Source: Escallonia rubra
Taxonomy: Eukaryota > Streptophyta > Magnoliopsida > Escalloniales > Escalloniaceae
Assembly: GCA_033065855.1 (NCBI GenBank)
Contig: JAVXUO010001706.1
Location: 1 to 64,000 of the forward strand
DNA length: 64,000 bases
Direction of reading: 5' to 3'
This document shows, piece after piece, positions 1,358 to 50,405 of this stretch. The notes beneath the pieces were generated by a model. That model made no database searches and was not told the DNA's origin. It saw only the letters and a program-made list of their open reading frames with translations. The translations under genes were made by a program, and so were the position numbers. Numbering within the stretch: position 1 is the first letter of the stretch; each line of letters opens with the position of its first letter.

Positions 1358-2632
1358 TAAAGTGGGCGATGACACGGTCTTGTTGGAACACGATGGATTA
1401 AAAGAAGAAAAGGAGAATTATTGGTATCTTGATATTGGTGCCAGCAATCACATGTGTGGCAACAAACACATGTTTATTGAGATGGATGAATCAATGACTG
1501 GAAATATTACATTTGGAGACATTTCCAAAATTCTAGTCAAAGGCAAAGGCAAAATTTTGATCAAATTGAAGAATGTGGCCATCAGTTCATCTCAAATGTT
1601 TATTATGTTCCCGAGATGGAGGCAAACATTTTGAGCATGGGCCAGCTGTTGGAGAAAGGCTACGACATCCATATGAAAGACAAATGTCTTTATTTGAGAA
1701 ATGATAGAGGGAGTTTGATTGCTCGTGTTCCGATGTCGAGTAATAGGATGTTCCTGATGAATATCCATCATGATGCGCTTAAATGTTTGAAGGCATGTTT
1801 TGATAACCAATCTTGGTTATGGCATTTGAGGCTTAGACAACTAAATTTTGGAGGTCTGAAATTGCTATCGACGAAGAATATGTTAAATGGATTGCCATTG
1901 ATAGACCAGCCAGACCAACTCCACGAGGGTTGTCTTGCCAGGAAGCAACATCGACACAGTTTCCCAAAGGACTCGATATCAAGAGCAAAAGCGATGTTGG
2001 AGCTAATACACGTTAATGTGTGTGGTCCAATCGATCCAGTATCTCTTGGTAAGAACATATCCTTCTTACTGTTCATTGATCACTATAGTAGAAAAACATG
2101 GGTTTATTTCCTCAAGCAAAAGTCAGAGGTGTTCTCAACCTTCAAAAGGTTTAAGGCTCTTGTGGAGAAGCATAGTGGATATAAGATCAAGGCGATGAGA
2201 TCTGATCGAGGTGGAGAGTTCATATCTAAAGAGTTCAAGGCATTTTGTGAAGAGAATGGCATCCGTCGACCGCTTACCATTCCATATTCACCCCAACAGA
2301 ATGGAGTGGTGGAAAGAAAAAACCGATCGATAGTGAACATGACTCGAAGCATGCTGAAGAGCAAGAACTTGCCCAATGAATTTTGGGCTGAAACAGTCGA
2401 TTGTGCGGTCTATTCATCGAATCGATGTCCAACAAGGAGTGTGTGGAATCAAACACCACAAGAAGCTTGGACTGGATACAAGCCAAGTGTGTCCCACTTG
2501 AAAGTATTTGGAAGTATTGCATATGTGCATGTTCCTGATCAGCAAAGGAAGAAGCTCGATGATAAAAGTGAGAAGTTTATCTTCATCGGTTACAGTCAAG
2601 AGTCAAAAGGGCATAAGTTATACAATCGATGA
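1344..2632 (+). pseudogene. Copia pol fragment: protease, pre-integrase, integrase
   Basis: Continues the element in two frames. 1344-1590 holds the aspartic protease, whose active-site DTGA reads DIGA (WYLDIGASNHM). A second frameshift lies at about 1590-1600. The frame ending at 2632 then carries the GAG-pre-integrase region and the integrase core. In the core the first catalytic Asp of the usual HSDVCGP is Asn (HVNVCGP, codon 2015-2017), the second Asp is kept in MRSDRGGEF, and the Glu in NGVVERKN. The start of the linker to reverse transcriptase is present (FIFIGYSQESKG), but RT and RNase H are absent because the sequence runs into an inverted repeat. It is non-functional by several independent lesions. 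Confidence 0.85.

Positions 2633-14754: not shown

Positions 14755-14775
<21 letters not shown>
13615..14775 (-). mobile_element. Outer gypsy-type LTR, second piece
   Basis: Resumes the LTR interrupted at 7773, starting with the duplicated CTCGA. It aligns in reverse complement with 29990-30890 (for instance the motif around GATCCAAGCTATGCAATGC). The long frame at 13537-13806 and its counterpart at 30569-30880 reflect this shared LTR sequence, not a gene. A run of about 18 C lies at 14674-14691. It ends in a (TA)n tract. Confidence 0.65.
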
Positions 14776-14782
<7 letters not shown>

Positions 14783-14785
<3 letters not shown>

Positions 14786-15150
14786 CTGATCCGTTGAGAG
14801 CGTTAGCAAAATAGGAGAAGTTGCAAGCGCGATCTGGCCGTCCATCCTGAAAGATGGACGGTCCAGATCGCGCCTTTTTCGAATACTGTCAGTCGTCCGC
14901 GATACAGTATAGCGGACGGACTTTTTTACCTTTTTGCCCTCTGACCCGTCCGCTATACTGTATCGCGGACGGTCCAAATTTTTTTTTTACGTTTTTTTTA
15001 AAATAGCCTCATGTTCCATCCGCTACATTATGTAGCGGAGGAGTAAGCAGGCATTATTTTTTTTTCCAGTCCTTTCTCTCATTAAAATTCTGACATGTTT
15101 CTCTCTCTCTCTCTCTCTCTCATTTGTCTCGTCAATTTCTGACACACTCT

Positions 15151-15194
<44 letters not shown>

Positions 15195-16277
15195 ATCAAT
15201 TTATGACGCTTTCTCTCTCTTTTCTCTCACCATGATTTCTTTTATGGGTTCTGGATGTAACACATAATGTAAATGGTATGCATGGGTAAGGGAAGGCTGA
15301 ATTTCAGCCGTGTCATGTTGGTGCATGGTGAGGCCGTGGAGTGATGGCAGCCGTGGTGGAGTGCGGCTGGGTACGGGGACCTTGCGTAAGTGTATCGGAG
15401 CCAAAAGGTTGGAGAGAAACAGCCTTGGGGAGGCTGTCAAGTATGCTGTTGACAGGAAAAGGACCCACTGCCGTGAGGCAGTGTGTGTAGATTGGACAAT
15501 AACAAGCCATTGCCGTGAGGCAGTGGCTGCTTTGCTGTGACTTGGATTGAGAAGATTATGCTTTGGAAAGAAAAATGAAGCAAGGGCAGTAGCTTGGAGG
15601 GAAACAAAAATTTAGTGAATGAAGGAGAAGATGATGGGTCTAGCTGTGGGAGTTGGAGAAATTGGTTATATGCATATGAGTATATGTATGTGTATATTAG
15701 AGAGTTACAAAATGGTGTAGTGTGTAGTAAGTATGGAATGTGACATTGGATTTGTAAATGGGTACCTGTGTGTATATTAGTGTGAAGAGTGGAGTGTAAG
15801 AAGCAATTTGAAGGCAAGGCAAAAGAAGAAGAAGAATGGGGGGAAAGGACAATGGGGTGGCCCATCTTTACGCGGGTATGTTTCTGGAGAACAAAAGAAG
15901 AAGAAGAATGGGGGGAAAGGACAATAGGGTGGGGCCCTTCAGCAAATCATGCCAACCGCAAATGTGTGCCTGCCTACTCCTCCGCTACATAATGTAGCGG
16001 ATGGAACAGGAGGCTATTTTTGTAAAAAAATCGTCCGCTACATTATGTAGCGGACGAACTTAAAAAAAACGTAAAAAAAAATTTAGACCGTCCGCGATAC
16101 AGTATAGCGGACGGGTCAGAGGGCAAAAAGGTAAAAAAGTCCGTCCGCTATACTGTATCGCGGACGACTGACAGTATTCGAAAAATGCGCGATCTGGACC
16201 GTCCATCTTTCAGGATGGACGGCCAGATCGCGCTTGTAACTTCTCCTGATTTGCTAACGCTCTCAACGGATCAGCTC
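14783..16277. mobile_element. Palindromic long-TIR element inserted in (TA)n
   Basis: Inverted arms of about 270-310 bp (14783-15052 and 15969-16277) begin GAGCTGATCCGTTGAGAGCG. Each arm holds several smaller palindromes: CCGTCCATC..GATGGACGG, CGTCCGCGATACAGTATAGC and its inverse, and GTCCGCTACATTATGTAGCG. TA runs flank both ends, consistent with a TA target. The core (15053-15968) has CT-rich tracts, a direct repeat (AAGAAGAAGAATGGGGGGAA, near 15825 and 15897) and the palindrome CACTGCCGTGAGGCAGTG at 15466-15483, which also occurs in the neighbouring LTR at 10035-10052. The core therefore probably contains LTR-derived sequence. No transposase. Confidence 0.75.
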
Positions 16278-16278
<1 letters not shown>

Positions 16279-16357
<79 letters not shown>

Positions 16358-16418
16358 TAAAAGCCCTAAGTTGACAATTTACCAAAAAGCTCCCCTAACT
16401 TTTGTTAAGTATTCTAAT
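16279..16418. repeat. Left flank repeat: (TA)n(TG)n plus 64-bp unit
   Basis: A TA tract, a TG tract and a 64-bp unit (16355-16418, starting TATTAAAAGCCCTAAG) immediately precede the composite MULE. The same TA-TG-64-bp arrangement follows the element at 24168-24314, and the 64-bp unit is identical in both places. Confidence 0.85.
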
Positions 16419-16456
16419 GGATCGGGCCCCACCACAAAAAGCACTCATTTTTTTTT

Positions 16457-17230
16457 TTGAGCCCAACCGCATGTAAGAGAAGCGGTTGGTTATGATTATT
16501 TTTTTGACATGGGCCCACCACAAAAAAACACTCCACCCAACCGCTTTTCTTATACTCGGTTGGGACATATTTTTTTTTGCCCAACCGCTTCTCTTAGAAG
16601 CGGTTGGTAAGCCCCTTTTTTTTTAACAATTTTTTAAAAAAACCAACCGCATATAAAAGAAGCGGTTGGTGGCTTTTATTTTGGGTGGCTCCCACACAAA
16701 AATTTTCAAATTTTTTGATTGGATGACACAAAAAAAAAAAAAAATTTCGAGCCAAGGCTGCCACGTGGCCTCCTCCGCGCCTGCCACGTGGCCCAACCGC
16801 GTGAAGGGGCGCCGGTTGGTGCCACGTGGCCTCCTCCGCGCCTGCCACGTGGCCCAACCGCGTGAAGGGGCGCCGGTTGGTGCCACGTGGCCTCCTCCGC
16901 GCCTGCCACGTGGCCCAACCGCGTGAAGGGGCGCCGGTTGGTGCCACGTGGCCTCCTCAGCGCCTGCCACGTGGCCCAACCGCGTGAAGGGGCGCAGGTT
17001 GGTGCCGCGTGGCCTCCACGCGCCTGCCACGTGGCCTCCTCAGCGCCTGCCACGTGGCCCAACCGCGTGAAGGGACGCCGGTTGGTGCCGCGTGGCCACC
17101 ACGCGCCTGCCACGTGGCCCAACGCGGGAAGGTGCGCCGGTTGGTACAATGGCGGTGCCACGTGGCCTCCCCCGCTCCTGCCACGTGGCCCAACCGCGTG
17201 AAGGGGCTCCGCGGGTTGCCCTCTCCTTCT
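16457..17230. repeat. Left-arm hairpin and CACGTG repeat array
   Basis: Four AT-type hairpin units (about 16463-16670; for example CCCAACCGC..TAAGAGAAGCGGTTGG) are followed by a roughly 61-bp tandem array (16757-17215). Each array unit has CCAACCGCGTGAAGG..CGCCGGTTGG and GCCACGTGGC. CACGTG is the G-box core bound by plant bZIP and bHLH factors. The array is open in several frames because of its composition; the long minus-strand frames over it are not genes. Confidence 0.85.
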
Positions 17231-17406
17231 GCCACGTGGCGCCCCCCCCCCCCACGCGCCTGATGCTCCCCATGACTCTGTCCTTCCCTCCCCGTGACTG
17301 TCCTTTTGCGGAGTCTTTTTTTTCGCGCCAAATTTTTTTTCTGCCACCACTCACGGGTTTTTTCTGCAGACACCCTCTTTTTTCTTCTCTCTTCCTTTTT
17401 CTTCTC

Positions 17407-17416
17407 TATTTATAAT
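17407..17416 (+). promoter_or_regulatory. Inward TATA element, left arm
   Basis: TATTTATAAT lies about 160 bp upstream of a good splice donor (CACAACAA|GTAAGTATT, about 17560-17575). It is followed by a CT-rich leader, as expected for a plant promoter driving the transposase unit from the left arm. Inferred from sequence only. Confidence 0.5.
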
Positions 17417-17567
17417 CCCCTCCCCCCAACCATTCTTCTCCACATTTCTGCTCTGCTCCGCACTTTTTCTCCACAAACCAAAAAATTTTAGCGCTAGAAG
17501 AAGATCGGTGGATAATCACTAGAAGATCGGTAGATTTTTCTTCAAATACATCAAGTCACAACAAGTA

Positions 17568-19562
17568 AGTATTTTGAATTTCCTTATACATCAAGTCAGC
17601 GTATTACACTTAGCGTATTACATTTATAGCGATTCAAAATAGCGTATTACATTACATTTATAGACAGCTTTTTCACGGATTTATAAAAAATAGCTAGAGC
17701 GAGATTTTGCCAAAGTACAAAAAAAAGACCCTAGTTATTCTGAAAGGATCTGTATGAGGTAAAAATTTCAGATTTTTCGAAGCACTGTAGAGGGGCTAAC
17801 TGATACGGGGAACCGTGTACCTTCGCAGTCTAATTTAAAATACCAAGCTAGCGCGATTTCGCGCGAAACTTTTACGAGAACCCTAGGATGTTGGGAAGTT
17901 CCATTCCCCAGGATTTCGCGCCATTCCGGAGCCGTTTGCTATTTTTTTGCCCGAACGGCCCTTTCAGCGCTCGCCCTTTAATTAGACAGCTTTTTCACGG
18001 ATTTATAAAAAATATCTAGAGCGTGATTTGGCCAAAGTGCAAAACAGGGACCCTAGTTATTCTGAAAGGATCTGTATCAGGTAAACATTTCAGATTTTTC
18101 CAAGCACTGTAGAGGGGCTAACTGATACGGGGAACCGTGTACCTTCGCAGTTTAATTTAAAATACCAAGCTAGCGCGATTTCGCGCGAAACTTTTACGAG
18201 AACCCTAGGATGTTGGGAAGTTCCATTCCCCAGGATTTCGCGCCATTCCGGAGCCGTTTGCTATTTTTTTGCCCGAACGGCCCTTTCAGCGCTCGCCCCG
18301 TACACCGGTTCGCGATTTTTGCGCGAAAAATCCGTAAAGTACTTTTTAGGCCAATGATGAACTCACGAAGCGTAAAGTAGCATTTCGAGGCACCTTTGAG
18401 ATTTTTCCTGATGCCAGGGGCATTTCGGTAATTTGCCACCCCGCGAGGGGTGTTTCGGTAATTTTCCCGCGCCAAGTTTTTAATTACACAGTTTTAGTCC
18501 AGGAATGTAATCACAGAACCTGAAATGTTGTTTTGAAGCTGGTTCGGGGGCGTTGGGGTGATAGTGAACCCCCGGGGGCATTTCGATAATTTGCCGCTCA
18601 TCGGTGACTATTTTGCTAGGAAGGATCCAGCCTCATGATACATGCCTTAAAATAACTTTTAGTTCAGCAAAGGGTGTCAGACACCCGAAAACTTTTATTG
18701 TCCCGGGTGAATTCAGGAACTTGTGACGCACCGGCGATGACTGCCAGGGGGTATTTTGCACAAGTAGCGAGTGTTTTGGTAACTTTCCCCCTTTAAAATT
18801 TTTCCTGATATATTGGGTATATAATTGACGTAATACATTTAAAAACTTGACTTCAAAGCGGTTTTGAGGTCTTGGGGGTGTAGGGGCCATCGGGGGGTAT
18901 ATTGCTATATAACCACGTTGGCGCTACATTCAGTGAGAACTGGCGTAATTAACCGTTCGGAGTGGTGGGAAGTGAGGATTTGTTTTAATACATTTAAATA
19001 ATGACTATTACTAATGTGTTGGTAAGCTAGGTTAAAGATCCAGATATGTTGGTTACCCCCTGGGGCATTTCGGTAATTTGCCGCTCATCGGGGGCTATTT
19101 TGTTAGGAAGGATCCAGCTTAAAGGGCCATACCGTAAAATAATTTGTAGTTCAGCAAATGGTGTCAGACACCCGAAAACTTATTTTGTCCCGGATGAATT
19201 CAGGAAGCTTAAAATGCCGTTTCAAAGCACTCGGAACGATTTTTTGATGCCAGGGGGCATTTTTCGGTAATTCGCAGCCCCGAGGGGGGTATTTTCGTAA
19301 TTTTACAGCGTTAAGTTTTTTAAAGGACTTCTTAGTCCAGAAATGTAAGCAAAGCACCTAAAAGGTTGTTTTCAAGCTGATTTGGGACGTTAGGGTGATA
19401 ATGAACTCCCCGGGGGCATTTTGCTAATTTGCCCCCGTCGGGGGCTATTTTGATAATTTTACATTATACAAATCAGCTTAAGCAATTACGTTTAAATAAT
19501 TTTTATTCTTCTTTTATTTAATTCTATGACTTGTTGATAATCGTATTGGTTTTTATTTTTTA
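17568..19562 (+). other. Putative 2-kb leader intron of the transposase unit
   Basis: A donor GTAAGTATT at about 17568 and an acceptor TTTTTATTTTTTAG ending at 19562 bracket about 2 kb without ORFs, 15 bases before the transposase ATG. The interval contains a 322-bp tandem duplication (17663-17984 and 17985-18298). It also has repeated modules with the phrase GGGGGCATTTCGGTAATTTG (18415, 18575, 19060, 19255, 19415 and others). Splicing is a prediction. Confidence 0.45.
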
Positions 19563-19577
19563 GATTTCAGTATAAAT

Positions 19578-21152
19578 ATGGATGCAACTGGAGGAAATAT
19601 TTTTTGTGAAGGTTCTGATCCACCTTACTTGGGTCAAATTTTCCAAACACTGGACGAAGTCGAAGCATACTACAGAGCATATTCGAAAACAATGGGTTTC
19701 GGTATTAGAACTAAGACGACTAGAAAACGGGTGAATACCGATCAAATTGGTGCAAGGTTATTTGAGTGTCATAGAGGAGCACCGTATGTACCCCCCGTCG
19801 TTCAGATCAGTGACGAAGGGACAACAAGACAAAGAAAACGGGACACATTTCCGGGTACCGGCTGCAAAGCCCATGTGTATGCAGTACACCGGAAAAATGA
19901 AAACCATTGGGTTTTGACGGGTGTGGAGTTGAGCCATAATCATCAGTTTTGCACCCCTAGTATGATTGGTCAAATTCATCAACACCGAGAAATAAGCGCG
20001 GCACACAGACAACTGATTTCAACAATGGCCGACGCTAAAATATCACCTTCTAAGATGATGGGGGTTTTCTCAAGCCAGGCTGGGGGGATTGACAAGTTGA
20101 CTTTCAACGACGTTGACCTTCGAAATCAACTCCGTGCTCAGAGGAGAGAGTCTTTCGGTCAGATCGATTCTCAAGCTACACTTGATATCTTCAGGTGCCT
20201 TCAGAGTGAGAATTCTGGATTTTTCTACAGTCTCCAAGTGGATGATGAGGGCCGCATTAGTACTATATTTTGGGTGGACCCCCGTTCTAGAGCTGCTTAC
20301 CAAAATTTTGGGGATGTTGTGACGTTTGACACCACATACCGCACCAATAAGTACTCTATGCCTTTTGCTCCGTTCACCGGGGTGAACCACCACTATCAGT
20401 CAATCTCATTTGGCTTTGCCCTGCTTAGGGATGAGACGGAGGAGTCATTTACGTGGTTATTTGAAACGTGGCTTCAAGCAATGTATCATATTCCTCCAAA
20501 GACCATCATCACCGACCAAGATCTGGCAATGAAAAATGCAATCACTAAGGTCCTTCCAGATACTCACCATGGCCTGTGCACGTGGCACATAAGCAACAAA
20601 TATCCCGAACGGCTTCACAATGTATATGCAAAGCATCCGGAATTCAAGACTGACTTTAATACATGCGTGAAGAAATCGTTGACGGTAGACGTGTTCGAGG
20701 AAAGGTGGGCCGCGTTAATGGATGACTACGGTTTGCACAATCATGGATGGTTAAAATCGTTGTATGAGATCAAGACACAGTGGGTCGGTGCCTACACCAA
20801 GAAGTTTTTTACAGCCGGAATGACTACGACATCGAAAAGCGAAGCTATGAATTCATTCTTCGATGGGTACGTAGGCCAGTCTTCAAGTATAGCGGAGTTT
20901 GTACTAGAGATGCAGAAAGCCCTTGAGAGGCAATTGTACCGTGAGAGAGAAGCCGACGTGGCTACAGTTTACAAAGAAAGATCCATACTACTTCGTTCAC
21001 CATTGGAGGCTCATGCGGCTCAAGTCTATACGAAGGAAATGTTTCGACAGTTTCAAGAGGAACTATTAAAGTCGAATCAATATGGCATGACAAAGTTGCA
21101 CGAGTTTTCCACCAGAGATCTCAAGGTTTATGCTTTGACAAATGTATCATGA
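19578..21152 (+). CDS. FAR1/FHY3-type MULE transposase, C-terminally truncated
   Basis: An uninterrupted 524-residue frame. Residues about 28-125 form a FAR1 DNA-binding domain: YYRAYSKTMGFGIRTKTTRK, Cys64, Cys96 and the HNH at 120-122 give the C..C..HxH zinc-binding pattern. Residues about 245-345 are a MULE transposase core with Asp251 (TFDTTYRTN), Asp313 (IITDQD) and Glu422 (SKSEAMNSFF), so the DDE triad is complete. Family members usually continue to a SWIM zinc finger. Here the frame ends with a TGA supplied by the inverted right arm, whose homology starts at 21142, so SWIM is missing. A strong acceptor precedes the ATG. In an autonomous Mutator-like element this protein would excise and integrate the element in the nucleus; whether the truncated form is active is unknown. 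It might instead act as a DNA-binding regulator. Confidence 0.85.
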   Translation: MDATGGNIFCEGSDPPYLGQIFQTLDEVEAYYRAYSKTMGFGIRTKTTRKRVNTDQIGARLFECHRGAPYVPPVVQISDEGTTRQRKRDTFPGTGCKAHVYAVHRKNENHWVLTGVELSHNHQFCTPSMIGQIHQHREISAAHRQLISTMADAKISPSKMMGVFSSQAGGIDKLTFNDVDLRNQLRAQRRESFGQIDSQATLDIFRCLQSENSGFFYSLQVDDEGRISTIFWVDPRSRAAYQNFGDVVTFDTTYRTNKYSMPFAPFTGVNHHYQSISFGFALLRDETEESFTWLFETWLQAMYHIPPKTIITDQDLAMKNAITKVLPDTHHGLCTWHISNKYPERLHNVYAKHPEFKTDFNTCVKKSLTVDVFEERWAALMDDYGLHNHGWLKSLYEIKTQWVGAYTKKFFTAGMTTTSKSEAMNSFFDGYVGQSSSIAEFVLEMQKALERQLYREREADVATVYKERSILLRSPLEAHAAQVYTKEMFRQFQEELLKSNQYGMTKLHEFSTRDLKVYALTNVS

Positions 21153-23036
21153 GGCTGGATCCTTCCTAGCAAAATAGTCACCGATGAGCGGCAAATTACC
21201 GAAATGCCCCCGGGGGTTCACTATCACCCCAACGCCCCCGAACCAGCTTCAAAACAACATTTCAGGTTCTGTGATTACATTCCTGGACTAAAACTGTGTA
21301 ATTAAAAACTTGGCGCGGGAAAATTACCGAAACACCCCTCGCGGGGTGGCAAATTACCGAAATGCCCCTGGCATCAGGAAAAATCTCAAAGGTGCCTCGA
21401 AATGCTACTTTACGCTTCGTGAGTTCATCATTGGCCTAAAAAGTACTTTACGGATTTTTCGCGCAAAAATCGCGAACCGGTGTCCGGGGCGAGCGCTGAA
21501 AGGGCCGTTCGGGCAAAAAAATAGCAAACGGCTCCGGAATGGCGCGAAATCCTGGGGAATGGAACTTCCCAACATCCTAGGGTTCTCGTAAAAGTTTCGC
21601 GCGAAATCGCACTAGCTTGGTATTTTAAATTAGACTGCGAAGGTACACGGTTCCCCGTATCAGTTAGCCCCTCTACAGTCCTTGGAAAAATCTGAAATTT
21701 TTACATGATACAGATCCTTTCAGAATAACTAGGGTCTTTTTTTTGTACTTTGGCAAAATCTCGCTCTAGCTATTTTTTATAAATCCGTGAAAAAGCTGTC
21801 TAATTAAAGGGCGAGCGCTGAAAGGGCCGTTCGAGCAAAAAAATAGCAAACGGCTCCGGAATGGCGGGAAATCCTGGGGAATGGAACACCCGCTAAAAAT
21901 TTTAAAGGGGGAAAGTTACCAAAATACCCGCTACTTGTGCAAAATACCCCCTGGCAGTCATCGCCGGTGCGTCACAAGTTCCTGAATTCACCCGGGACAA
22001 TAAAAGTTTTCGGGTGTCTGACACCCTTTGCTGAACTAAAAGTTATTTTAAGGCATGTATCATGAGGCTGGATCCTTCCTAGCAAAATAGTCACCGATGA
22101 GCGGCAAATTACCGAAATGCCCCCGGGGGTTCACTATCACCCCAACGCCCCCGAACCAGCTTCAAAACAACATTTCAGGTTCTATGATTACATTCCTGGA
22201 CTAAAACTGTGTAATTAAAAACTTGGCGCGGGAAAATTACCGAAACACCCCTCGCGGGGTGGCAAATTACCGAAATGCCCCTGGCATCAGGAAAAATCTC
22301 AAAGGTGCCTCGAAATGCTACTTTACGCTTCGTGAGTTCATCATTGGCCTAAAAAGTACTTGACGGATTTTTCGCGCAAAAATCGCGAACCGGTGTCCGG
22401 GGCGAGCGCTGAAAGGGCCGTTCGGGCAAAAAAATAGGAAACGGCTCCAGAATGGCGCGAAATCCTGGGGAATGGAACTTCCCAACATCCTAGGGTTCTC
22501 GTAAAAGTTTCGCGCGAAATCGCGCTAGCTTGGTATTTTAAATTAGACGGCGAAGGTACACGGTTCCCCGTAGCAGTTAGCCCCTCTACAGTGCTTGGAA
22601 AAATCTGAAATTTTTACCTGATACAGATCCTTTCAGAATAACTAGGGTCCCTGTTTTACACTTTGGCCAAATCACGCTCTAGCTATTTTTTATAAATCCG
22701 TGAAAAAGCTGTCTAATTAAAGGGCGAGCGCTGAAAGGGCCGTTCGGGCAAAAAAATAGCAAACGGCTCCGGAATGGCGCGAAATCCTGGGGAATGGAAC
22801 TTCCCAACATCCTAGGGTTCTCGTAAAAGTTTCGCGCGAAATCGCGCTAGCTTGGTATTTTAAATTAGACTGCGAAGGTACACGGTTCCCCGTATCAGTT
22901 AGCCCCTCTACAGTGCTTGGAAAAATCTGAAATTTTTACCTCATACATATCCTTTCAGAATAACTAGGGTCTCTTTTTTGTACTTTGGCAAAATCTCGCT
23001 CTAGCTATTTTTTATAAATCCGTGAAAAAGCTGTCT
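21142..23036. repeat. Right arm inner part with 913-bp offset duplication
   Basis: Reverse complement of the left-arm sequence 17663-18800, but rearranged. A block starting ATGTATCATGAGGCTGG occurs at 21142 and again at 22055, each followed by the same about 740 bp. The segment 21890-22054 matches 18640-18800 of the left arm. The arm has thus been partly duplicated after the palindrome formed. Confidence 0.8.
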
Positions 23037-23296
23037 ATAAATGTAATGTAATACGCTATTTTGAATCGCTATAAATGTAATACGCTAAGTGTAATACGCT
23101 AAGTGTAATACGCTGACTTGATGTATAAGGAAATTCAAAATACTTACTTGTTATGACTTGATGTATTTGAAGAAAAATCTACCGATCTTCTAGCGATTAT
23201 CCACCGATCTTCTTTTAGCGCTAAAATTTTTTGGTTTGTGGAGAAAAAGTGCGGAGCAGAGCATAAATGTGGAGAAGAATGGTTGGGGGAGGGGAT

Positions 23297-23304
23297 TATA
23301 AATA
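23297..23304 (-). promoter_or_regulatory. Inward TATA element, right arm
   Basis: Reads CTATTTATAATC on the minus strand, mirroring the TATA element at 17407-17416, with the same CT-rich leader and splice-donor region (about 23140-23150) downstream. It points into the transposase gene from its 3' side, so it would produce antisense RNA. Confidence 0.5.
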
Positions 23305-23439
23305 GAGAAGAAAAAAGAGGGTCTCTGCAGAAAAAACCCGTGAGTGGTCTCTGCAGAAAAAAAAATTTGGCGCGAAATAAAAGACTCTGCAAAAGGACAG
23401 TCACGGGGAGGGAAGGACAGAGTCACGGGGAGCATCAGG

Positions 23440-24155
23440 CGCGGGGGGGGGGGGGCGCCACGTGGCAGAAGGAGAGGCCAACCCGCGGGGCCCCTTCACG
23501 CGGTTGGGCAACGTGGCAGGCGCGGGGGAGGCCACGTGGCACCGCCATCGTACCAACCGGCGCACCTTCCCGCGTTGGGCCACGTGGCAGGCGCGTGGTG
23601 GCCACGTGGCAGGCGCGTGGAGGCCACGCGGCACCAACCGGCGTCCCTTCACGCGGTTGGGCCACGTGGCAGCCGCGGGCGAAGCCACGTGGCACCAACC
23701 GGCGTCCCTTCACGCGGTTGGGCCACGTGGCAGGCGCGGGCGAGGCCACGTGGCATCAACCGGCGTCCCCTCACGCGGTTGGGCCACGTGGCAGGCGCGG
23801 AGGAGGCCACGTGGCAGCCTTGGCTCGAAATTTTTTTTTTTTTTTTGTGTCAGTTAATCAAAAAAATTGAAAATTTTTGTGTGGGAGCCACCCAAAAAAA
23901 AAGCCACCAACCGCTTCTTTTATATGCGGTTGGTTTTTTAAAAAAATTGTTAAAAAAAGGGGCTTACCAACCGCTTCTAAGAGAAGCGGTTGGGGAAAAA
24001 AAAATTTGTGGTGGGCCCATGTCAAAAAAATTATCATGCCCAACCGCTTCTCTTACATGCGGTTGGGCTCAAAAGAAAAAATGAGTGCTTTTTGTGGTGG
24101 GGCCCACGAGAAAATGATACAGTACCCAACCGCTTCTCTTACAAGCGGTGGGTGT
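23440..24155. repeat. Right-arm CACGTG array and hairpin units
   Basis: Mirror of the left-arm array: CACGTG-bearing units at 23455-23830, preceded by a G-rich run at 23439-23452, then AT-type CCAACCGC..GCGGTTGG hairpins at 23907-24150. The right arm has fewer GC units and one additional terminal hairpin, so the arms have diverged by unit gain and loss. Confidence 0.8.
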
Positions 24156-24165
24156 GGATCGGGCC

Positions 24166-24167
<2 letters not shown>

Positions 24168-24253
<86 letters not shown>

Positions 24254-24314
24254 TAAAAGCCCTAAGTTGACAATTTACCAAAAAGCTCCCCTAACTTTTG
24301 TTAAGTATTCTAAT
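24168..24314. repeat. Right flank repeat: (TA)n(TG)n plus 64-bp unit
   Basis: Second copy of the microsatellite plus 64-bp unit. The 64 bases 24251-24314 equal 16355-16418 exactly. Sequence then continues into the outer LTR (TTTAGCCACAAC), so this is the copy contiguous with the ancestral target. Confidence 0.85.
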
Positions 24315-26146: not shown

Positions 26147-27910
26147 TTAAAGCAAAAAAATAAAGTAACGACCCATTTCAGAGAATTTTCCATAATATTC
26201 TCCGCCTCTGTCAGATCTTATAACTTTAATCTTTAGGTCAAGTTGATTTTCAACTTCAGCTTTGTAAGTCTTAAACATGGCAAGTGAGTCAGATTTTTCA
26301 TGAATGAGGTAAACATATCCATAACGAGAATAGTCATCAATAAAGGTGATAAAGTATCTATGACCACCAATACTCGGTGTAGGGAAAGGTCCATAAATGT
26401 CAGTGTGGATAAGCTTTAAAAGTCCCATACTTCGAGTGGTACCACGTTTATTACCTTTTACAAATTTTCCTTTAATACATTCAATACTGTGTCAAAATCT
26501 GAGAAATCTAAAGAATGAAGAATTCCATCCTCAATGAGGCGTTCCATTCTGTCTCGTGATATGTGACCAAGACGTTCATGCCACAATTTAGCAAAAATTT
26601 CATTCTCTCTTTTTCTCTTACAACAAGTTTTAGCAACTACATCATTCACGTTCATTGTTTTCAAGGATTCAGTAAAAAAAGCATTTAAAAGTAATTTGTA
26701 GAGGTTTCCCTCCAACAAACCAGAACCAATAACTCTAGAGTAAAGGAAAAGAGAGAAGCCTTTATTCTCAAACTTAAACGAATATCCATAAGTGTCAAGT
26801 CTAGAAACAGAAATAAGATTTCTAGTCATACTGGGAACATAAACAGTATCAACTAAATCCAAATTGAAGCCACTCTCCAAAACTAAACGGAGAGTTCCTA
26901 CAGCTTCAACTTGAGCTTTCTCTCCATTTCCTACTAGAACATTACGGTCCCCTTTGTTTAACTTCTTCACGGAAAGGAATCCCTGCAATGAATTAGTTAT
27001 GTGCACAGTTGCACCTGTGTCAACCCACCATGTATTTAAAGGAGCATCAATTGTATAAGACTCATAACAAATACAAATAGATAATTTACCTTTCTTTTCC
27101 AACCATTCTCTGAATTTATGACATTCTTTCCTCACATGTCCTTTATCCTTACAAAAGTAACACCTGGGACCAGAAGAACCGTTGGTACTAGAAGAGCTTG
27201 CCTTGTCAGTCTTGGTTACAGAAGCACTCTTGTTCCCTTGCACATTACCTTTGCCAAATTTCTTTCCTTTTCCTTTTCCTTTAGATGGACCAGTAATGGC
27301 AACGTGAGCACTATCAGGTTGTTCAGACTTTAGCCTCTCTTCTTCTTGGACACACATGGAAATCAACTCGCTCATCTTCCACTTCTCTTTCTGCGTGTTA
27401 TAGTTGATCTTAAAAGGACCAAACTGCGCAGGAAGGGAAGTCATAATAAAGTGTACGAGAAAACCTTCAGAGATTTCCATGTCCAAACCTTTTAGTTGAG
27501 AAGCCATATCATTCGTCCGTAAAATATGCTCACGAACACCGTTGGATCTACTATACTTGAGCGTAACCATTTTAGTGATGAGAGTAGTAGCATGTGCCTT
27601 GGAAGAACCCTGAAATTGTTCTTCAATATGGGCAAGGTATTGCTTAGCATTATCCGAGTCAAGAATGGCTCCTCGAATAATAGTCGTAATGGAGCCTTTC
27701 ATAATCATTAGGGATATGCGGTTGGAACGCTCCCACATTTCATAAGCCGCCTTTTGCTCAGTAGAGCTTTTAGCCGTAAGGGCAGCAGGCGCGTCAACCC
27801 CGTAAAGCATAATCCGAATCCATAACTCAGAGGATTATGCTAATCTGCTCTTTCCATTTTCTAAAATTGGTGCCGCTCAATGATTCGATAGAGGAAAGAT
27901 AGCCAGTAAT
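26147..27910 (-). pseudogene. Copia gag-pol 5' half (gag, protease, part of integrase)
   Basis: Minus-strand copia polyprotein. It shows the gag start motif GTNFRKWKEQI at about 27870, then a TGA and a one-base shift near 27800-27835, and then a 450-residue frame (26458-27810) with the UBN2 gag region. The frame goes on with a CCHC knuckle (CYFCKDKGHVRKEC), protease WWVDTGATVHI with DTGA intact, and GAG-pre-integrase (LWHERLGHISRDRM). A second shift near 26450 leads to the integrase core start (LIHTDIYGPF, FIDDYSRYGYVYL, IRSDRGGEYYG). The sequence ends after the second catalytic Asp in AT-rich DNA, so the rest of integrase, RT, RNase H and the 3' LTR are missing. Confidence 0.85.
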
Positions 27911-35300: not shown

Positions 35301-35410
35301 CCTGGGCGTTAGCCTTGGCCTCCCCCTAAGGGTTGGCCTTAGACTTCCCCTATGGTTTCGCCTTTGGTCTCCATACTTAACACCTTCACTTCTCTGCAAG
35401 GGACCATACA

Positions 35411-35655
35411 TAACTCCGCGACCCCGCCGCCCGGACACAACTCCGCGACCCCGTCGCCCGGACACAACTCCGCGACCACGTCGCCCGTACACAACCCCGC
35501 GACCCCGTCGCCCGGACACAACCCCGCGACCCCGTCGCCCGGACACAACCCCGCGACCCCGTCGCCCGGACACAACCCCGCGACCCCGTCGCCCGGACAC
35601 AACTCTGCGACCCCCGTCGCCCGGACACAACTCTGCCACCCCCGTCGCCGGCATC
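35411..35655. repeat. 27-bp minisatellite, about nine units
   Basis: Unit AACTCCGCGACCCCGTCGCC plus CGGACAC. The period is a multiple of three, so all frames stay open and read as 9-residue repeats on both strands. This is tandem DNA inside solo LTR A, not a gene. Confidence 0.9.
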
Positions 35656-44810: not shown

Positions 44811-44815
44811 CTTCC

Positions 44816-45465
44816 GGGATGGGCTCACAACCTTATAGCCATCGCCGTCTCAATCACAGGGGGGCTTCGGTCCTCGCACCGGGATGGGATCACAATCTTA
44901 TAGCCATCGCCGTCTCAATCACAGGGGGGCTTCGGTCCTCGCACCGGGATGGGATCACAACGTTATAGCCATCGCCGTCTCAATCACAGGGGGGCTTCGG
45001 CCCTCGTACCGGGATGGGCTCATAACTTTATAGCCATCGCCGTCTCAATCACAGGGGGGCTTCGGCCCTCGTACCGAGATGGGCTCACAACCTTATAGCC
45101 ATCGCCGTCTCAATCACAGGTGGGCTTCGGCCCTCGTACCGAGATGGGCTCACAACCTTATAGCCATCGTCGTCTCAATCACAGGGGGGCTTCGGCCCTC
45201 GTACCGGGATGGGCTAACAACTTTATAGCCATCACCGTCTCAATCACAGGTGGGCTTCGGCCTTCGTACCGGGATGGGCTCACAACCTTATAGCCATCGC
45301 CATTTTTATCACAGGGGGGCTTCGGCCCTCGCACCGGGATGGGCTCACAACCTTATAGCCATCGCCGTCACAATCATGAGGGGCTCATGCATGAGGACCC
45401 CTCGCAGCGGGATGGGCTCATAACCTTAAAGCCATCGCCATCATAATCACGGGGGGCTTCGACAC
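44816..45465. repeat. 65-bp tandem repeat, about ten units
   Basis: Unit starts CGGGATGGGCTCACAACCTT and contains CACAGGGGGGCTTCGG. Unit-to-unit identity is high, which suggests recent expansion by unequal exchange or slippage. Not seen in copy A. Confidence 0.9.
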
Positions 45466-45908
45466 GAGGACCCCTCACAGCGGACTCTGAGCACTGTGCT
45501 GCGAGCATGTCCACTCATGTTACTGTTGGTCGTGGAAACCACCAAGGCAATGACCCACGGGTCACTCCGGGACGGGAGCAGGTCCTCGGAGGGCATCGCG
45601 CCTAGTCTACTTGGCAGTTGGCTACAGGGGCAACCCTCACCGCTGTCAGGTTCTCTGCGCGTCTCTTGATGCACCTCGTGGGATTCAGTAAGGGCTGGGA
45701 CCGGTGGCTGGAGCAACGGGCTTACTCTGATCATGCCGTCATGGTGTGGTCAGTCTTCTCAGACAGGAAGAGCAACGTTGTGCGAGGCAGGCAACATGAA
45801 TTTGGGAACCAGCAGTTCAACGAAGAACTGGTATTTTGGGACCCCCTGGTGACGTGTCACTCCCAGGGGACGACATGTGGCACTTTATGACATAAGCATA
45901 CCGTTTTC

Positions 45909-47593: not shown

Positions 47594-50405
47594 GTTTGTT
47601 TGACAAAACTTTAAGTTTTTAGTTTTTTTTTTTAGAAAACTGGAAAGAGGTTTGGTTTTTTTTTTTTTCTGCCAGTTTAAAAAATTGGTGGGCGTTTGAT
47701 AGAGTTTATTTTTTTTTTAAAAAAAAAACTAAGAGCGTTTGAAAAGACAACTTTTTTTTTAATATAAATTTTCACATAATGAAACATAGTTAAAGAAATA
47801 TATTACAATGCCTTACATATAATTAAACATAATTCTACAAATATGTTACAATGTCTTACAAATAATTAAACATAATTAAAAAATTACATTACAATAACTA
47901 TTACAATGTCTTACACATAATTAAACATAATTAAACCAATATATTACATTGTTTTACATCCCCAGTGCTTCATTCTAGTGGTATTAAGAGAATCTCAACC
48001 ATAAATCAACGTCTGCCGTTCCAAATTTTTGCAGCAATGCGGTCTCTAACTTTCCCCATTCTCTTTTGTTGTTGAGGGTTACTAAGATACATCTAATTTT
48101 GATTTTGTGACCCGCCGATCTGATCACCTTCAATAATCATATCTTCCCTTGCAAAATCCAAAAATTCTGGATCACCTCGATCTTGTCGTCGGATAAAATT
48201 GTGGATAGTGCAGCATGCAATTGGTATGTATTTTTGAGTTTTAATCGAAAGAGATGGCATCTAATTCAAAATTGCAAAGCGTTTTTTTAGGACTCCGAAG
48301 GACCTTTCAATGACATTTCGCAGCGACGAATGCCTATAATTGAACAATTCTGTGATACCTGTTGGTAGCCCGAGTCGTTCAAAATCAGGTAAATGGTATC
48401 GTTCTCCTCTATACGGTGCTAAGAACCCCGTTACGTTCGTATAACCAGAGTCAACAACATAATAACGATCTGAAAAGTTAAGTAAAACCTGTAAGTATTA
48501 CTACTTGACAATTGAGTTAATATAGGATCAAACTCGTACCAATGCATGCAAATGTGTACCTCCTACAGGCATTGGAAACCTATTAACGGGGTTCGTAATT
48601 GTCTAAAAAATCACTTTGGCATCATGTGCACTTCCTTCCCAACCAGCCATAACATAAGTGAAGCACATGTCAAAAGAACACACGCACAAGATATTCTGTG
48701 ATGTGTCAATCATCTTTCCATGGTAAGGAATTTGTTCGTCCTCCGGTATGCATGCATCAATATGAGTACCGTCAATTGCTCCAGTACATTTCTAACACAT
48801 AAGCAAATTCATATCATCTACAGATATCAAAGCATTCACCAATTTGATTTTCATGGGAATAAAGTTTACCTTAAAATAAGGCCAATACTTGGGGATATTT
48901 TCAACTTCTGTTGCAACTTCACTTTGATTTGGAGGCGAAATAATTTGCGGTGCAAGCCGGCACACTTTTTTCAAAACATGCTTGAAATAATACGATATGG
49001 TCTCGCCTGAATGTTGGAACCGCTTTGCAGTGACGCGGTTGCTTAAGCCATGCGCGAGTATATACAGGAAAATTGCTACTTGTTCTTGGACAGTCAAATA
49101 TCTAGAATCTTGCATGCCTGTTTCAGCCCTCAAAAGTTCACAAAATGCTAAGAAAACTGGCGGTCTCATCCTCAACATATCATAGCATCTACCCTCGTGA
49201 CCATATATTAACTCTAACACATAATCATGTCCTCTAAGTACTGAATCTCTCATGGGCCTTTTGTTCCTGTACATGTCTTGATATTCTGCAAATCCTATCA
49301 CGCCCATAACCTCTGCCACCTCAAACTCCTCCTCTTCCTCAATCTCATCTAACTCATCAAGCAACTGATAAACATCATAAATCCCAACCATATTCGGGTC
49401 CATCCTGTTTAACAATTTAGGCAAAATTAATGTTCCAACATAACAACATAGGCAGAAGAAATCCAATCGTTAACACACATCAAAATCCATAACAATATGA
49501 TCATAAGTGAGGGGCAACCCCACTAATTCAAGTACATAATGTAAAAGATAACATTACATGAAAATAAATAATGTCACTTCAAACAAGCACGCCAATAGAA
49601 AATACGTAAGCACCGCACACTATCACTTCAAATTACGGACCACATCAACTTTCCTAATATTTGGAATATCCATAAACATGTCCCTCCAAAGTGCATCGCT
49701 ACACAGTCTCTCAAAGCCTTTCGCATACTGCTCCCCTCAATGCCTTCAAGAGCTCCTAAGCAATCAATAGCATCTTTAACCTTTTTCTTGGACTCATCAC
49801 TTTCAGATGTCGCATATGTGGTACCTTTATCCTCAAGACAAGATGAACTGAACATCAACTTCTTCTCAAAAAGCTCAGTCCTCTTTCTCGAACTCTTAGC
49901 AAGCCTACCTAAGAAGGTTGACAACGTTGCACTATAGCTTTCCTTCTTGCCACTCCTCTTTGTAGAAGATCTACTCCTCTTTCGATCCACATGCAAGTCC
50001 TTGTCCTTGCCTTATCGTTGAGATCATCATCTTCCTTCTTTATCTGCACCTCGTCCTCATCACTGTCAGAAGGTAAATTTGCTGAAGATTGAGTATTCAA
50101 ACCCTTTGCCACCGTAGACCCAAAGATAGTTTGTAGCTGTAAATACACAGGACAATCTCTTTTCCGATACTTCTTAGCCCAACCATTTTCCTATGTATAT
50201 AAAAAATAAACAAATCAAATGAGTTCTACGGACTTTAAACAATTGGGATATGGAAAAAAAGATGATAAAGAATGGTGGAGTATATAACGCAACTTAAAAT
50301 ATATACCTTAATTAACCTATCCCACATCTCATCATCAACAACAATATTACCCGTAGTAGGATATTTTCCTATTCCAGTGGTTGTCGTAAGCAATTTTGTG
50401 TACAT
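47594..50405 (-). mobile_element. PIF/Harbinger element, one end truncated
   Basis: Starts CGGGTTTGTTTGACAAAACT, a degraded relative of the GGGTCTGTTTGGTATGAC end at 61577. Both are followed by about 200 bp of similar T-rich sequence (CCAGTTTAAAAAA[A/C]TGGTGG). It encodes on the minus strand a Myb-like protein and a DDE transposase, the usual two-gene set of Pong/PIF elements. The other terminus is missing, and LTR sequence resumes at about 50400, inside the 5' part of the Myb-like gene. No 3-bp target duplication can be confirmed. Confidence 0.7.
48006..49403 (-). pseudogene. PIF/Harbinger DDE transposase (DDE_Tnp_4), three exons
   Basis: Exons inferred from consensus splice sites: 49403-48871, 48791-48560, 48469-48006. 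An acceptor directly before MDPNMVG favours this start. Exon 1 has the acidic N-terminus and HTH region (LTVQEQVAIFLYILAHGLSN; RFQHSGETISYYF). Exon 2 has AIDGTHIDA with the first catalytic Asp. Exon 3 has VVDSGYTNVTGFLAPYRGER (second Asp) and NVIERSFGVLKKRF (Glu), so the DDE set is complete. The frame is closed by in-frame stops in exon 2 (after KVIF) and at two places in exon 3. It is recently degenerate and would act with the Myb-like partner encoded upstream. Confidence 0.8.

Follow-up and report, generated by a model that had tools for sequence, protein, structure and literature searches.

A probable rearranged derivative of a two-gene, MuDR-like MULE in Escallonia rubra, with a promoter-like module left without its gene

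The window analyzed in this report—a stretch of 64,000 nucleotides from an Escallonia rubra contig—contains at positions 16419-24167 an element in which two long inverted arms enclose a truncated transposase open reading frame (ORF) of a Mutator-like element (MULE). We compared this copy with its relatives in the same genome and read it as a rearranged derivative of a two-gene, MuDR-like MULE with a FAR1-type transposase, whose right-arm promoter has been orphaned by loss of the second gene, a reading to which we assign a probability of roughly 0.8. The arms, their inward modules, the second gene of the family, the junction, and the truncation can all be read directly in the DNA, and the history that would connect them is weighed below.

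Inverted arms and a truncated transposase

The arms pair over 16419-18803 and 24173-21895, with 2138 of 2197 aligned columns identical and a further 270 gap columns. Each arm holds a TATA-like string, a leader, and an AACAA/GTAAGT splice donor (starting at 17560 on the plus strand and at 23152 on the minus strand), and both modules point inward, toward the ORF (Table 1). An earlier note on this DNA had placed identical TATA/leader/splice-donor modules at 17407 (+) and 23304 (-), aimed at the ORF of a MULE; these coordinates proved exact, and the Pfam matches of the ORF (MULE at 5e-33 and FAR1 at 2.5e-13) bear out the identity. We consider the modules to be putative promoters and the introns that follow the leaders to be candidates for splicing. 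The ORF occurs only once in the element, with no inverted duplication of transposase sequence. A search of solved structures found no relative (best E 0.3). The outer terminus is retained at the right end, whereas the left end is 92 bp short relative to another copy, L012.

Immediately outside both TATA boxes sit tandem 61-bp repeats containing CACGTG, the G-box core, in numbers (14 and 10) that compare with shuffle means of 0.56 and 0.44; such arrays could possibly represent a light- or stress-responsive enhancer. CACGCGC, which we take to be the FAR1-binding-site motif, is not enriched in the arrays, where its 3 and 2 sites (shuffle means 0.64 and 0.55) fall inside the shuffle range. The outermost parts of the arms (16452-16685 and 23907-24152) contain recurring palindromes of ~27 bp, CCAACCGC...GCGGTTGG, which are possible transposase-binding or structural sites.

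Table 1. Features of the inverted-arm element and its immediate flanks (window coordinates)
Feature	Position	Strand	Remark
Left copy of flank direct repeat	16280..16418	+	~139 bp
Left arm (terminal inverted repeat)	16419..18803	+	Canonical terminus short by 92 bp
61-bp repeat array, left arm	16740..17262	+	14 CACGTG sites
Left TATA-like string	17407..17417	+	TATTTATAATC
Left CT-rich leader exon, up to donor	17418..17564	+	Predicted start site
Predicted intron in 5' untranslated region	17565..19563	+	GTAAGT ... TTTTTTAG; donor and acceptor common to other copies
Truncated FAR1/MULE transposase ORF	19578..21152	+	524 residues, without SWIM domain (Pfam)
Rearrangement junction, transposase to arm	21138..21142		4-bp microhomology ATGT
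Extra partial arm copy between ORF and right arm	21142..21887	-	Direct repeat of 22055-22800
Right arm	21895..24167	-	GGATCGGGCCCC at its end, abutting (AT)n; terminus set beside those of other copies
Right leader exon, up to donor	23148..23293	-	Predicted start site; intact-copy equivalent upstream of gene 2
Right TATA-like string	23294..23304	-	TATTTATAATC; starts at 23304
61-bp repeat array, right arm	23440..23830	-	10 CACGTG sites
Right copy of flank direct repeat	24174..24314	+	

A family with two convergent genes

The genome searched was the assembly containing the window (566 Mb in 3222 contigs). A protein search revealed at least 82 close transposase copies (82 scored of 4103 candidates), all at 93-100% identity, 71 of which are free of internal stops over the part matched. 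Twenty copies were fetched with their flanks from the first 27 of the 82 scored rows—intactness is therefore over-represented among them—and three of the 20 were followed further downstream, to the right end. The transposase is 763 residues long in 19 of the fetched copies and 725 in the other. In L011, it combines FAR1 (1.2e-12), MULE (6.7e-33), and SWIM (2.1e-07) domains, and the presence of FAR1 at the N terminus and SWIM at the C terminus, the latter missing from the window copy, places it in the Jittery/FAR1 type by domains, not by a tree. Among 19 transposases, 23 of 42 variant codons are nonsynonymous against a fraction of 0.74-0.79 expected without selection, which suggests purifying selection; the window copy was excluded from this comparison and from that of C-to-T variants below. 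The family is a young, high-copy plant MULE with a transposase of Jittery/FAR1 type. Where both ends were reached, in three copies, the element measures ~12 kb, with arms computed at 2.2-3.6 kb.

These fuller copies contain a second gene (gene 2). In L011 it lies on the opposite strand downstream of the transposase, with exons matching the plant mobile domain (PMD; 4.5e-46 and 7.7e-18) and Peptidase_C48, an Ulp1-type protease domain (1.3e-13). The stop codons of the two genes stand tail to tail, ~445 bp apart, and an acceptor-like TTTTGTTCTTATAG directly precedes the gene-2 ATG. A ~60-bp minisatellite, with a frame change nearby, occupies the middle exon of gene 2 (L011 1800-2500). The right-arm TATA/leader/donor module lies upstream of gene 2 in all three copies read that far, and an Ulp1 30-mer (at most one mismatch) is present in 19 of the 20 fetched copies, being absent from L024 and from the window. 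Neighbor relations were tallied among the places listed, namely 100 of 174 for the module, the 80 exact ones of 726 for SWIM, 100 of 671 for Ulp1, and 82 for the transposase. Among these, SWIM and Ulp1 neighbors are convergent in 65 of 65 cases, and so are module neighbors less than 16 kb apart on one contig (25/25).

A 44-base version of the module with up to three mismatches occurs at 174 places in the genome (84 on the plus and 90 on the minus strand; none for the reversed control), and the exact 11-base string TATTTATAATC is found in 16 of the 20 fetched left arms, with L025 carrying the module with two changes and L011 an N gap. When the arms with the exact string were aligned (21 arms, 17 left and 4 right, both window arms included; the left arms of L011, L022, L024, and L025 were left out), the changes between TATA and donor were almost only substitutions and homopolymer indels, whereas the stretch immediately upstream of the TATA showed many longer indels in the same arms. 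Since gene 2 lies behind the right module in the fuller copies, the right-arm promoter is most likely gene 2's own, as in maize MuDR, and not an antisense device. On this layout—a second gene convergent with the transposase and each gene behind a module in its terminal inverted repeat (TIR)—convergence is the ordinary two-gene plan of the family, and the comparison with MuDR made in the earlier note holds.

The ends of the copies also follow a pattern. A GGGGCCCGATCCACACCCACC-type terminus is found at 14 of the 20 fetched left ends and at all three right ends; at least four TA repeats adjoin 12 of these 14 left ends and the right ends of E11 and E12, but not that of E15. A 27-base version of the terminus (up to three mismatches) occurs at 492 places in the genome, with none for the control, and 24 terminus pairs (3.3-15.2 kb) were chosen by eye from 100 of these places. 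The family thus shows MuTAnT-like insertion into (TA)n. Of the target-site duplication of 9-11 bp usual for a MULE, one copy, E15, which lies outside a microsatellite, gives an instance, the 9-bp duplication ATCTTTATA; such duplications are unreadable in (TA)n sites, and the left end of the window copy is damaged. The longer direct repeat that flanks the window copy was entertained as a large target-site duplication, and hence a new mode of transposition, and was rejected: it combines (AT)n(GT)n with unique sequence and is an old dispersed repeat (40 scored matches, its own among them), the window copy has a damaged left terminus, and another copy has a 9-bp duplication. Next to the window copy, a separate inverted-repeat element at 14755-16306 (arms 14755-15001 and 16060-16306, 96% identical) is bounded by (TA)n and has ends resembling GATCAGCTCCC. 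Elsewhere in the genome, a 5.56-kb element (L034 83-5640) with both termini in (TA)n consists almost entirely of a pair of promoter arms that face each other (2.3 kb, 97%) and holds no gene sequence.

Origin of the window copy

In the fuller copies, each arm would constitute a promoter-like unit with a G-box array, a TATA, a leader exon, a splice donor, and an intron in the 5' untranslated region, the left unit standing ahead of the transposase and the right one ahead of the convergent PMD and Ulp1-type protease gene, in the manner of mudrA and mudrB. For the window copy, we propose that the transposase was fused near codon 520 to arm sequence by an aberrant repair event following excision, either gap repair that was interrupted or ectopic switching of the template. 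The SWIM domain and gene 2 are missing, part of an arm is doubled, and the left terminus is damaged. The right promoter faces the transposase in the window copy because gene 2 is gone; thus orphaned and aimed at the transposase 3' end, it could yield antisense RNA, and an RNA spanning both arms could fold back. A 29-base string across the junction has a single place in the genome at up to three mismatches. In a comparison over 470 positions, which left out the E11 right arm for lack of an anchor, the left arm of the window copy differs from that of E12 at only two positions, and the right arm stands 10-13 positions away from every one of six other arms; judged by its arms, the window copy is chimeric. 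As its left terminus is lost, this rearranged derivative is probably immobile.

Several observations weigh against this reading or complicate it. With the right arm this distant from all six others, simple deletion within one element does not account for the copy; together with the duplicated part of the arm and the microhomology at the junction, this divergence makes repair by ectopic copying a better fit. Two of the 20 fetched copies (L022 and L024) have neither the left module nor its leader, 15 of the 80 SWIM places listed have no Ulp1 neighbor, and the right end was reached in only three copies, one of them with its left arm interrupted by Ns. Variants in three stretches of gene-2 exon divide into nonsynonymous and synonymous as 3:1, 17:9 (and a stop besides), and 5:2, which gives no clear signal of selection. 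Finally, C-to-T variants in the transposase genes of L011-L028 are in excess at CHG sites (9/163, compared with 3/214 at CG and 7/667 at CHH), with a weaker excess in the intron outside the arm (4/48 at CHG vs 8/194 at CHH), a pattern that makes past methylation of the transposase gene body possible.

The first alternative is that the window copy is an assembly artefact, a false join of two elements. Such a join would account for a junction found once in the assembly, for arms that differ in their closest relatives, and for a flank present twice next to a damaged left terminus. However, an overlap join would need more than the 4 bp shared at the junction, the window is free of N, and short derivatives exist elsewhere in the genome, and we regard an artefact as quite unlikely.

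A second alternative, which builds on the inference of the earlier note, is that the element is designed for self-silencing: its right promoter would transcribe the transposase in antisense, and the arms would give rise to hairpin RNA that feeds small RNAs silencing the element and its relatives, in the way of Mu killer. The right module does face the transposase in the window copy, two of the three short derivatives examined (L033 and L034) consist of arms, with a pair of modules facing each other and neither gene matched—in the third, L035, 108 bp of transposase remain along with a single exact TATA string—and the CHG excess described above would be in keeping with silencing. However, the right module belongs to gene 2 in intact copies, many near-identical copies have open frames, and CG transitions account for just 6 of 59 mismatches between the arms. 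The observed/expected CpG ratio of the arms is 1.05 and 1.08, a lack of depletion for which the youth of the element alone could account (for comparison, two copia fragments give 0.59-0.63, the window flanks taken together 0.81-0.84, and tiles of 1.5 kb 0.39-1.17), and no C-to-T change was found at the 43 CHG sites of the arm interior. In maize, MuDR is reported not to be suppressed by extra antisense RNA, while Mu killer silencing is accompanied by two short antisense RNAs (PMC3440606). We therefore hold a self-silencing design to be very improbable. Convergent transcription onto the transposase as a built-in feature does not survive the finding that the right module precedes gene 2 in all three copies read to the right end, and with gene 2 in that place we rejected antisense by design for the family. 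The antisense aim stands for the window copy, but as a consequence of gene-2 loss at a junction found once and not as the family layout. As for the hairpin of ~2.5 kb, it would form only with transcription from outside the element; a transcript from the internal TATA could pair over ~1.37 kb of the left arm, of which ~1.24 kb is predicted intron. The idea of hairpin RNA arising by read-through of a TIR has already been published (PMC6446971).

Lastly, the notion that the modules are not promoters and were conserved merely because the copies are young and their arms copied whole draws on the closeness of all compared copies, in which identity by itself proves little, but we find it hard to credit since TATA, leader, near-consensus donor, and matching acceptor stand in order ahead of both ORFs, the stretch from TATA to donor is free of the long indels that abound just upstream, and MULE TIRs are known promoters (PMC3310237).

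Relation to known elements and significance

The family of the window copy can be compared with several known groups. Like MuDR, which is described as having two convergent genes with the promoter of each in a TIR (PMC3310237; PMC3440606), it has a convergent gene pair, each gene with its promoter-like module in a TIR. The MuDR TIRs are given as ~215 bp (PMC3440606), whereas the arms here measure kilobases and also hold a leader and an intron. The transposase is of FAR1 type, unlike that of MuDR, and gene 2 combines PMD and Ulp1 domains, which set it apart from mudrB by domains and not by sequence comparison. The FAR1/MULE/SWIM architecture is that of Jittery-type MULEs including AutoMuTAnT of Medicago, which is described as 4.9 kb long with one ORF, whereas the fuller copies here are ~12 kb long and have two genes. 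Targeting of TA microsatellites is shared with the Jittery-like MuTAnT (PMC4486113). In a published survey, the plant Jittery subgroup has TIRs of 39-292 bp and one ORF, and MULE TIRs span 14-500 bp (PMC6446971). Neither of the gene-2 domains is new to MULEs: ULP has been described downstream of MULE transposases in either orientation, Jittery-like grapevine families included (PMC2528002), PMD is captured by MULEs (PMC5418596) and is present in antisense in many plant ones (PMC6446971). A barley MULE is reported to have a reverse-oriented ORF (PMC9168764). Unlike other ULP1/PMD MULEs, the present family has a single convergent gene with both domains, which is predicted to use the arm promoter. 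Among the open-access titles and abstract openings listed in our searches, none describes a MULE of FAR1 type in which PMD and Ulp1 share one gene and the promoter arms are kilobases long. For a Jittery/FAR1-type MULE, it is unusual to have arms of 2.2-3.6 kb with arrays of G-boxes, a PMD-Ulp1 gene in convergent orientation, and foldback derivatives devoid of genes.

The window copy itself resembles two further cases. Like Mu killer, it is a rearranged derivative with inverted promoter arms and transposase sequence between or within them; in Mu killer, however, the transposase is itself duplicated in inverted orientation and silencing in trans has been shown, whereas here the transposase is single copy and the likeness is one of sequence alone. 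Like the MULEs with tandem TIRs of Ferguson and Jiang (PMC3310237), it has an extra arm copy beside the ordinary one, but here the extra copy lies inside the element, is incomplete, and belongs to a single rearrangement.

The rest of the window holds other repeats. Fragments of Copia-type retrotransposons, with integrase, gag-pre-integrase, and gag domains, lie at 1490-2632 (+) and 26458-27834 (-). A 225-residue ORF at 48792-49469 (-), whose only Pfam match is HTH_38 at 0.00028, below the cut-off, resembles a PIF/Harbinger-type transposase. Local tandem repeat arrays of several copies each occupy 44814-45483 and 35404-35649.

What the family may mean for the relation between MULEs and silencing can be put as follows. 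Capture of PMD by MULEs has been proposed to serve anti-silencing (PMC5418596). One speculation, which we deem unlikely, is that kilobase-long, hairpin-prone arms are tolerated because the PMD-Ulp1 product of gene 2 is an anti-silencing factor, while derivatives with facing promoters and no gene 2—the window copy and the foldbacks—are RNA sources acting on the leader exon common to both genes. If this were true, the family would bear an anti-silencer alongside potential silencers of its own. Long TIRs are believed to make MULEs vulnerable to silencing by hairpin and small interfering RNAs, with TIR loss as an escape (PMC6446971). This young, high-copy family went the opposite way, with long arms that contain whole promoter-like units and undepleted CpG, and a single genome brings together for comparison intact copies with both genes, a copy with an orphaned promoter, and foldbacks that have no gene.

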